DNA of 23,621 nucleotides from Treponema sp. (GTDB taxonomy: Bacteria > Spirochaetota > Spirochaetia > Treponematales > Breznakiellaceae). The notes under the pieces are model-generated. The model saw nothing but the letters and a program-made list of their open reading frames with translations, was not told the DNA's origin and searched no databases. Position numbers and translations under genes: made by a program. The stretch is from contig JAISOR010000170.1 in assembly GCA_031275535.1 (NCBI GenBank), forward strand, positions 1-23,621. Direction: 5' to 3'. Positions within the stretch are counted from its first letter, which is position 1. Every line of letters begins with the position of its first letter. This document shows positions 4,182 through 5,605 of this stretch, in pieces.

Positions 4182-5217
4182 AGGAACTCCTCCCCAGGGC
4201 CCGGCCCTCAAGGGCCGCGTATTTTTCCAGCGCCCCCATCAAAACGCTGAATTCGCCGGGGGTGATGGACTGTTCCCCGTCGCAGAGGGCCGCTTCGGGG
4301 TTGTTGTGGACCTCCAGGATAAGGCCGTCCGCCCCGGCGGCGATGGCGGCCTTGGCCATGGAGGGAACCATCCAGGCAAGGCCCGTGGCGTGGCTGGGAT
4401 CCACAATCACCGGCAGGTGGCTCTGCCGTTTCAGGATGGGGACCGCGCTCAGGTCCAGGGTATTCCGGGCAAAGGTGTCAAAGGTGCGGATCCCCCGTTC
4501 ACAGAGGATGATCCGGTCGTTCCCCCCGGCCATGAGGTATTCCGCGGCCATGAGCAGCTCCGTCACCGTGGAGGCCAGGCCCCGTTTGAGCAGTATGGGT
4601 TTGCGGCAATGGCTCAGTTCTTTAAGGAGGGTGAAATTCTGCATATTCCTGGCCCCCACCTGGATAATGTCCACATCATCAAAAAGTTCAAGCTGATGAA
4701 TGGCCATGAGTTCGGTGACGATGGGGAGCCCGGTCTCCTTCTTCGCCGCCAGGAGCAGATCCAGGCCCTCGCATCCCAGGCCCTGGAAACTGTAGGGGCT
4801 GGTCCGGGGCTTAAAGGCCCCGCCCCGCAGAAAGTCCGCCCCCGCCTCTTTTACCGATTGCGCAATCGAGAGGATCTGTTCCCTGGTCTCCACCGAACAG
4901 GGCCCGGCGATGATCCCCAGATGCCCCCCGCCGATATGCCGGACCTCCCCGTCCGGTCCGGGGATATCCAGCCGGGTGTCCTCGGGATGAAAGGCCCGGT
5001 TCGCCCGTTTATAGGGCTCCTGGACCCGGAGAACCTTTTCCACCAGGTGGTGGGCCTGCAGGGTCTCTTCGTTAATCCCCGAGGTGTCTCCTATAAGGCC
5101 CAGCACCGTCTGGGAGGCCCCCTGGGAGGTATGGACCCCCAGGCCCCGTTTTTCCAGCAGGGCGATAAAGCCCCGCAGCTCCTCCGGCGGGGTTCCCCGC
5201 TTCATGGCGATAATCAT
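4168..5217 (-). CDS. aroF: 3-deoxy-7-phosphoheptulonate (DAHP) synthase, type I-beta
   Basis: This enzyme condenses phosphoenolpyruvate and erythrose-4-phosphate, the first step of the shikimate pathway. The 349-residue protein has a small N-terminal ferredoxin/ACT-like domain (about 1-65), as in Thermotoga DAHP synthase, then a TIM barrel. Barrel motifs include AGPCSVE (104-110, metal-ligand Cys107), the substrate-binding RGGAFKPRTSPYSFQG (131-146), QVGARNMQNF (186-195), LLKRG (209-213) and DPSHATG (273-279, with the metal-ligand His). In Thermotoga the N-terminal domain mediates inhibition by tyrosine; the same is inferred here. The ATG at 5217 is preferred over one at 5232 because GGAGGAG sits six bases before it. 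It is the first structural gene of a two-gene operon with tyrA, behind a tyrosine-codon leader and terminator. Confidence 0.95.
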   Translation of the reverse strand: MIIAMKRGTPPEELRGFIALLEKRGLGVHTSQGASQTVLGLIGDTSGINEETLQAHHLVEKVLRVQEPYKRANRAFHPEDTRLDIPGPDGEVRHIGGGHLGIIAGPCSVETREQILSIAQSVKEAGADFLRGGAFKPRTSPYSFQGLGCEGLDLLLAAKKETGLPIVTELMAIHQLELFDDVDIIQVGARNMQNFTLLKELSHCRKPILLKRGLASTVTELLMAAEYLMAGGNDRIILCERGIRTFDTFARNTLDLSAVPILKRQSHLPVIVDPSHATGLAWMVPSMAKAAIAAGADGLILEVHNNPEAALCDGEQSITPGEFSVLMGALEKYAALEGRALGRSSCETH

Positions 5218-5248
5218 GATACGCTCCTCCATAAATTTCTTAGGGCAT

Positions 5249-5279
5249 AAAAAAAGGGAGACCCCAACGGAGTCTCCCT
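5249..5279 (-). terminator. Attenuator (intrinsic terminator) before aroF-tyrA
   Basis: On the - strand a 10-bp stem (arms 5278-5269 and 5265-5256, one G-U pair, 3-base loop) is followed directly by seven T residues (5255-5249). It lies between the Tyr-rich leader ORF and the aroF ribosome binding site, so termination here would prevent expression of both enzymes. Its 5' arm and loop (5275-5262) are also complementary to leader bases 5342-5329: eight consecutive pairs plus four more after a 2x2 mismatch. This supplies a competing antiterminator. Confidence 0.88.
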
Positions 5280-5304
5280 GAATGTTCAGGCTTTGACGGT
5301 CTTC

Positions 5305-5385
5305 TCAGACTTTCAATCTGATCGACACAGACTCCGGAGGGGACGAGGATTGATAATAATAGTAATACCCTACAAAGCCTTTCAT
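5305..5385 (-). CDS. Tyrosine-rich leader peptide of the aroF-tyrA attenuator
   Basis: This is a 26-codon ORF beginning MKGFVGYYYYYQ, with codons 7-11 all Tyr (TAT TAC TAT TAT TAT) and ending in TGA. It starts 16 bases from the predicted transcription start, with AAAGGA nine bases before the ATG. The run of codons for the end product of the downstream genes, followed by a terminator with a mutually exclusive pairing partner, is the classic ribosome-mediated attenuation arrangement known from trp, his and phe operons. When charged tRNA-Tyr is scarce, a ribosome stalled at codons 7-11 should leave 5342-5329 free to pair with the terminator's 5' arm and permit read-through. Additional pairings are visible: GGCUUUG (5379-5373) with CAAAGCC (5295-5289), and a hairpin at 5318-5304. 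It is too small to be a conventional protein and was recognised by codon content and position. Confidence 0.88.
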   Translation of the reverse strand: MKGFVGYYYYYQSSSPPESVSIRLKV

Positions 5386-5407
5386 GCCGTGAATTCCTTT
5401 AAAAGGA

Positions 5408-5436
5408 ACTATAGAGAAAACGGAAATTAGTGTCAA
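5408..5436 (-). promoter_or_regulatory. Promoter of the aroF-tyrA operon
   Basis: Reading on the - strand, TTGACA (5436-5431) and TATAGT (5413-5408) are separated by exactly 17 bases. The predicted start near 5401 gives the leader ORF a very short untranslated region, as expected for an attenuator leader. Confidence 0.85.
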
Positions 5437-5456
5437 TAGTCCTGCGGATAAATCCA

Positions 5457-5605
5457 GCAATTCCGAATTTGAACGAAAAAATGGCCCGGACAGAACATCA
5501 GAAAGCGGCCACGCTTGCCCCTACGGGGCTTCGGTCAAGTGTCCGCTTTGAGATAACCCGTCCGGGCCGTCTTGTCTTTCTCCAATCGTGGAATTGCCGG
5601 TTTTT
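5457..5605 (+). ncRNA. Candidate structured RNA (nested inverted repeats)
   Basis: Nested complementary segments form one long interrupted hairpin. Outer stem GCAATTCC (5457-5464)/GGAATTGC (5590-5597). Then GGCCCGGAC (5483-5491)/GTCCGGGCC (5560-5568). Then a symmetrical 10/10 internal loop, AAAGCGG (5502-5508)/CCGCTTT (5543-5549), and ACGCTTG (5511-5517)/CAAGTGT (5536-5542). The apical part contains CCCC-TAC-GGGG. The last stem pairs fully only as + strand RNA, through a G-U pair; on the - strand it has an A-C mismatch. A T5 run follows the outer stem at 5601-5605. On the - strand, the 9-bp stem is followed by ATTTTTT, so a terminator reading leftwards is also possible. I do not recognise tmRNA, SRP RNA or RNase P signatures. 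Stem, bubble and terminal loop recall 6S RNA in outline only. A weak -10-like GATAAA is at 5447-5452. Confidence 0.45.

Follow-up and report, generated by a model that had tools for sequence, protein, structure and literature searches.

The aroF-tyrA operon on the minus strand of the window, the 23,621-nucleotide stretch of Treponema DNA analysed here, is very probably controlled by a ribosome-mediated transcription attenuator that senses charged tRNA-Tyr. Between positions 5436 and 5217, a promoter, a Shine-Dalgarno-like AAAGGA, a reading frame of 26 codons and an intrinsic terminator follow one another and lead into aroF (Table 1). A first-pass annotation of this DNA had proposed attenuation by a run of tyrosine codons, and the promoter, the short frame with five Tyr codons in a row and the terminator with its T tract are all present. 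Its 8+4 bp antiterminator (5342-5329 with 5275-5262) is reproduced by the computed fold. The recurrence of the leader, the terminator and the competing folds, all read from sequence, make ribosome-mediated attenuation by the Tyr run the best reading of the region.

Table 1 Features of the aroF-tyrA leader region and operon in the window
Feature	Positions	Strand	Basis or remark
Sigma-70-type promoter, TTGACA-17-TATAGT	5436-5408	-	11/12 matches
Shine-Dalgarno-like AAAGGA	5400-5395	-	9 nt 5' of leader ATG; read from sequence
Putative leader peptide ORF MKGFVGYYYYYQSSSPPESVSIRLKV, 26 codons + TGA	5385-5305	-	Sequence and relatives
Segment 1 (candidate protector strand), AGGCUUUG.AGGG	5380-5368	-	8+4 bp with segment 2; fold
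Five consecutive Tyr codons (proposed sensor)	5367-5353	-	Sequence and relatives
Segment 2, CCCC..CGGAGUCU (predicted antiterminator 5' strand)	5342-5329	-	Fold and relatives
Hairpin P2, within predicted antiterminator junction	5328-5298	-	Fold; contains leader stop codon
Leader stop codon	5307-5305	-	Inside hairpin P2
Hairpin P3, CCUGA-ACAU-UCAGG	5290-5277	-	Fold; overlaps terminator base
Intrinsic terminator (segments 3 + 4), AGGGAGACTCC-GTT-GGGGTCTCCCT	5279-5255	-	Sequence and covariation
U tract of terminator, T6	5254-5249	-	Sequence
aroF, DAHP synthase	5232-4168	-	NF006421.0, 461 bits vs cutoff 335; PF00793, PF18152
tyrA, prephenate dehydrogenase family	4211-3219 (start approximate)	-	PF02153, PF20463 above gathering scores

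The genes behind the leader make the amino acid that its codons specify, since aroF and tyrA both belong to tyrosine synthesis. A short frame with codons for the product of the operon thus lies between the promoter and the first gene, and an intrinsic terminator lies between this frame and the first gene. The proposal that DAHP synthase and prephenate dehydrogenase genes stand downstream of the leader is borne out by the NF006421.0 and Pfam matches. tyrA overlaps the end of aroF and carries the two prephenate dehydrogenase domains, PF02153 and PF20463, and all of its NCBIfam matches fall under the curated cut-offs. Translation of aroF may start at 5217 (ATGATTATC, after GGAGGAG) instead of at the first ATG at 5232. 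In 39 of 44 leader-bearing relatives, a tyrA-like match begins no more than 300 nt from the point where the aroF match ends. The neighbouring leuS lies on the plus strand and is convergent. Upstream of the promoter, at 5571-5475 on the minus strand, an extended GC-rich inverted repeat (GGCCCGGAC...GTCCGGGCC) with ATTTTTT directly after it was seen by eye and is perhaps the terminator of an upstream minus-strand gene.

The leader recurs in related genomes, as the first-pass annotation had proposed to check. A contig search with the aroF of the window gave 242 relatives, and the analysis went on with the 80 best; by title these are mostly Treponema or Spirochaetaceae MAGs, and their isolate codes suggest a termite-gut origin for most of them. 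Upstream sequence of 200 nt or more was available for 79 aroF genes (that of the window and 78 from the best-80 loci). Among these regions, a short open reading frame with a run of three or more TAY codons is found in 32, with four or more in 21 and with five or more in 12. None is found on the reverse strand at any of these lengths, and dinucleotide shuffles give means of 0.1, 0.0 and 0.0, respectively. Tyr runs before aroF are thus far in excess of chance. When whole-genome additions were included, repeats removed and matches of at least 60% identity kept, 93 distinct aroF upstream regions were obtained, and 45 of them carry both leader and terminator. This count results from 46 automatic calls, from which L022 and L079 were removed by eye and to which L124, missed by the terminator filter, was added by eye. 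The pair is absent from the other 48, which include outgroups, one contig too short to judge and the relative of highest identity (L001); L004 is scored as lacking it with 121 nt of upstream sequence and an intact terminator.

The spacing of the elements is regular. The stop codon lies 18-32 nt from the terminator in 43 of the 45 leaders, the exceptions being L020 and L076. A single GGAG or GGAA site is found within 40 nt past the last Tyr codon in 37 of the 45, and the distance from that codon to the start of the site is 17 nt in 22 of these 37 and 11-19 nt in 36; the GGAG core of segment 2 in the window also starts at 17 nt. Longer leaders occur in L003, L009, L016, L029 and L106, in which, by eye, a strand resembling GACAGAUA precedes the Tyr run and can pair with UAUCUGUC just past it, enclosing the Tyr codons; this strand is absent from the short leaders, including that of the window. 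Runs of five TAY codons are not confined to aroF leaders. A scan of eight whole genomes gave matches in six, located in the aroF leader (four genomes), upstream of a dnaN-like gene (five) and inside a longer reading frame (one). The runs directly 5' of the dnaN-like gene (L091, L092, L093, L094 and L096; gene named by eye) are a decoy for Tyr-run searches; we take the gene to be dnaN, and the runs resemble the DnaA-trio repeats of oriC.

Leaders of a related kind are found in a second family, that of genome G002; judging from the titles of L076 and L077, these are Treponema of the rumen and gut. Of the 195 genomes in the family, 126 give a match at E 1e-100 or better, a count that takes in the second DAHP synthase. 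An aromatic leader with a terminator is present in 44 of 53 distinct upstream regions of this family, with Tyr, Phe and Trp codons mixed. L070, L076 and L077 belong to both the 44 and the 45, and the second-family set omits L151, L178 and L201, which duplicate L070, L076 and L191, as well as the leader-bearing L202.

In some close relatives that keep the operon the run has been lost, which the first-pass annotation had counted against attenuation. Such losses are found, for example, in L001, L002, L006, L045, L051, L054 and L055; in these relatives the whole leader is gone, and remnants of the promoter or terminator persist in L001, L045 and L054. In L001 the promoter adjoins the terminator with no leader between them, and in L045 and L054 the terminator is damaged. 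Together with L022 and L037, these loci retain aroF-tyrA while the leader ORF is gone and the promoter stands beside the terminator or the terminator is damaged; the five are apparently decayed attenuators. Presence of the leader was mapped on a tree of 143 aroF rows, with 86 labelled as having one (L202 carries one and is labelled none). The label is clustered, with 18 changes against 44.9 when shuffled, and at least eight changes are forced by well-supported branches. The tree omits loci from L206 onward, upstream regions shorter than 150 nt, matches below 60% identity among L001-L150 and translations shorter than 300 residues. This distribution fits an old leader that was lost several times, and gains are also possible.

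The terminator could also be read as a fixed brake or as the end of an upstream unit, with the Tyr-rich frame being incidental; terminators are common before operons, and L001 and L037 keep one without a leader. This explanation is extremely unlikely, because the Tyr runs lie far above shuffled expectation, because the frame is regularly spaced between promoter and terminator and because the 5' arm of the terminator, segment 3, matches the leader by complementarity better than shuffled or swapped sequences do. This complementarity was scored as the degree to which each leader sequesters its own segment 3. In the clade of the window it amounts to 0.78 against 0.50 in shuffled sequences (n = 42; 16 singly at p<0.05), and in the second family to 0.64 against 0.38 (n = 44; 19 singly at p<0.05). 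It exceeds swaps with unrelated loci with p 4.5e-12 and 3.3e-7, respectively, the rows not being independent; singly, a rank p<0.05 against swaps is reached by just 7 of 42 and 2 of 44 leaders.

Compensatory changes in the stems, another check suggested by the first-pass annotation, are seen in the terminator, in P3 and, between clades, in the helix of segments 2 and 3; within the clade of the window this helix gave none beyond chance. Alignment A1 contains 42 of the 45 leaders, L070, L076 and L077 being left out. In it, 95.5% of the terminator cells are paired, with 24 double changes against 7.1 in shuffles and none of 500 shuffles as high, and the covariation score of P3 exceeds all 500 shuffles. 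The helix between segments 2 and 3 is paired in 78.3% of cells, compared with at most 52.8% for slid versions. Its covariation in A1 does not go beyond column shuffles, 62 of 500 of which reach the score, because the core of the helix hardly varies within the clade. Between clades the two strands change in step, for example as GGAG/CUCC, GGAAGUC/GACUUCC, AGAGUUC/GGAACUCU and GAAGGUUUC/GGAACCUUC; the last three of these, and also UGCAGAGC/GCUCUGCA, are second-family pairs. Several of the 44 second-family leaders, such as L077, L157, L189, L190 and L192, have no convincing pairing of segments 2 and 3.

The predicted antiterminator is best drawn as a three-way junction, in which segment 2 pairs with the 5' arm of the terminator around inner hairpins. 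Folding was constrained by assumed ribosome edges, 12 nt ahead of the first A-site base and 18 nt behind the stop codon. The mean pairing probability between the segment 2 core and segment 3 exceeds 0.5 in 42 of the 45 loci when a ribosome occupies the last Tyr codon; it does so in 35 with the ribosome at the first Tyr codon and in 21 without a ribosome. When the entire terminator is free to compete, the pairing is kept in two loci (the window and L007) and lost in 43, so that the switch must be kinetic in those 43. In the window, the junction is the minimum-energy fold with the ribosome at the first Tyr codon (-38.4 kcal/mol), and the terminator is excluded although it is fully available. With the ribosome at the stop codon the terminator forms (-19.1 kcal/mol), and behind this ribosome segments 1 and 2 pair over 8+4 bp (-13.1 kcal/mol). 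Two inner hairpins lie between segments 2 and 3 in 41 of the 45 loci (mean z -2.8; 33 of the 45 below -2), and the leader stop codon falls within an inner hairpin in 44. The length of P2 varies much between loci. Against shuffles, the best single helix is significant (p<0.05) in just 18 of the 45 loci, the frame of L124 being misread in this comparison. Folding and comparison indicate an antiterminator in competition with the terminator, set free by a stalled ribosome.

These folds suggest the following switch, in which we infer the ribosome positions, the kinetics and the response to tyrosine. When Tyr-tRNA is short, the ribosome would stall in the Tyr run and block the pairing of segment 1, leaving segment 2 free. 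Segments 2 and 3 would then close the three-way junction with P2 and P3, so that the terminator could not form and the operon would be read. When Tyr-tRNA is ample, the ribosome would reach the stop codon inside P2 and dismantle the junction. Behind the finishing ribosome, segments 1 and 2 would pair, or segment 2 would be partly covered, and segments 3 and 4 would then form the terminator.

How the antiterminator is blocked at the end of the leader had been left open by the first-pass annotation, which named a GGCUUUG/CAAAGCC stem as one candidate. This stem has at least 7 bp of Watson-Crick pairing in the window; as a general blocking stem it was rejected, as pairing of at least 7 bp between those regions occurs in just 7 of the 45 loci, the window included. 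The recurring partner of the start-proximal strand is instead the antiterminator strand, segment 2. The pairing of segments 1 and 2 exceeds chance with a combined p of 2e-9 and is singly significant (p<0.05) in 12 of 42 leaders, with p 0.13 in the window, and it was not found in L124. Of 42 leaders, 26 have TCC as codon 3 or 4, with a G after it in 23; the leader of the window lacks it. By these models, a start-proximal strand can pair with segment 2 when no ribosome stalls, and the finishing ribosome may melt P2 and let segment 1 reclaim segment 2. The protector pairing is the weakest of the sequence-testable features of the attenuator.

The codon content of the leaders bears on what the ribosome would read. 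By one counting rule for both families, the aromatic clusters of the clade of the window contain 204 Y, 42 F and 1 W (42 leaders, with F in 28 and W in one), and those of the second family contain 194 Y, 77 F and 16 W (44 leaders, with F in 34 and W in 15). The clade of the window is thus Tyr-dominated, not Tyr-only. Runs of a single residue that recur in this way could also belong to an arrest peptide, in which the nascent poly-Tyr chain makes the ribosome stall in response to a small molecule, in place of stalling by empty tRNA at the codons. Nascent-peptide stalling occurs in other leaders, such as TnaC. Nevertheless, an arrest peptide is very unlikely here, because run length, position in the frame and neighbouring residues vary freely and Y, F and W are intermixed in no fixed order in the second family; codon reading accounts for this better than a peptide signature would.

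The same stalling might report phenylalanine as well as tyrosine, which we consider unlikely. Phe occurs in the aromatic cluster of 28 of the 42 clade leaders, making up 42 of 247 positions, and codon 4 of the window leader is Phe. AroR, a leader of Corynebacterium glutamicum with the motif Phe-Tyr-Phe, is reported to react to Phe but not Tyr, although it contains a Tyr codon (PMC11802643). However, the run of the window is pure Tyr, with Phe codon 4 preceding it and two other codons between, the second gene of the operon is tyrA, and relatives possess a separate fusion of DAHP synthase and prephenate dehydratase. This second DAHP synthase, fused to prephenate dehydratase and an ACT domain, was seen at L131:100-2100 on the minus strand; L131, the one scanned, has PF00793, PF00800 and PF01842, and further long open frames like it are found among the aroF matches of about 48% identity. 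The fusion likely serves the Phe branch. A Phe leader ahead of the fusion gene was considered and rejected, the eight upstream regions of L131-L138 having no consistent aromatic leader.

At about even odds, these observations reflect an old and widespread family of DAHP synthase leader attenuators in spirochaetes that reads codons for Tyr, Phe and Trp together. The termite-gut Treponema clade would hold a narrowed form of it, dominated by Tyr and almost without Trp, as a sensor of the Tyr-branch enzyme (in the window the run is pure Tyr), with the Phe branch served by the DAHP synthase-prephenate dehydratase fusion. Its antiterminator would be a three-way junction that is dismantled by translation ending in one of its hairpins. 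In AT-rich spirochaetes (L206-L229), another leader, ending in Gly-Val-stop and carrying Y/F clusters such as YAYYFFYYGV, precedes aroF in 15 of 24 loci. The filter gave no terminator between this leader and aroF. In the seven loci folded, a hairpin surrounds the stop codon and changes in step (GGCGU/ACGCC, GGUGU/ACACC). These leaders may point to a different kind of control of aroF.

Tyrosine operons are known mainly under the control of T-boxes or TyrR. The probability that a T-box, or a different riboswitch binding tRNA or a ligand, controls the present operon is vanishingly small: no Rfam family reaches its gathering threshold anywhere in the window, and the three hits within 5200-5480 all lie far below their gathering scores. 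T-boxes are reported to act on tyrosine genes in other species (PMC1262725).

The pheA, pheST and trp leaders of Escherichia coli carry codons for the end product and switch between competing 1:2, 2:3 and 3:4 pairings. The aroF leader described here is like them in its end-product codons and, by prediction, in the competing pairings, of which 1:2 is the weakest, and differs in that their codons are Phe or Trp. In none of these leaders do we know of a three-way junction whose inner hairpin holds the stop codon. The E. coli attenuators are outlined in PMC11802643. By its sequence-testable features, the present leader reads as a ribosome-mediated attenuator. A close counterpart is AroR, the leader before aroF of C. 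glutamicum (Neshat et al. 2014 as cited in PMC11802643 and PMC11525245; leader also in PMC4046766). Both are leader peptides with aromatic codons ahead of a DAHP synthase operon, with ribosome-mediated attenuation described for AroR and proposed for the present leader; AroR has three residues, Phe-Tyr-Phe, a reported response to Phe instead of Tyr, and an actinobacterial host. The uORFC-13-1 motif before aroF of Acholeplasma, an upstream ORF with a terminator predicted by comparison, belongs to another phylum and has at least one Phe codon, with no Tyr run described in the relevant section of PMC8632094. For E. coli aroF-tyrA without TyrR, an attenuator sensing Tyr-tRNA has been suggested for the same operon (Camakaris et al. 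1980 as cited in PMC2659441), and the hypothesised aroF attenuation is also mentioned in PMC8632094; it is a suggestion there, with no leader peptide described in the cited passages. Putative attenuators have been listed before tyrA operons of various bacteria, with no spirochaete among the rows listed in PMC1173090. Among the literature matches listed, mostly outside subscription journals, no attenuator with a Tyr-run leader and none in a spirochaete was found. The pure Tyr run and the phylum are therefore probably new, as is the junction antiterminator. With the stop codon inside it, the predicted junction offers a concrete and testable account of how an antiterminator could be shut off by a ribosome that completes the leader. 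The codon content, from Tyr/Phe/Trp to Tyr-dominated, offers a natural series for the retuning of an attenuator from several amino acids towards one. If true, a Tyr switch read by the ribosome extends leader attenuators to tyrosine and to spirochaetes.
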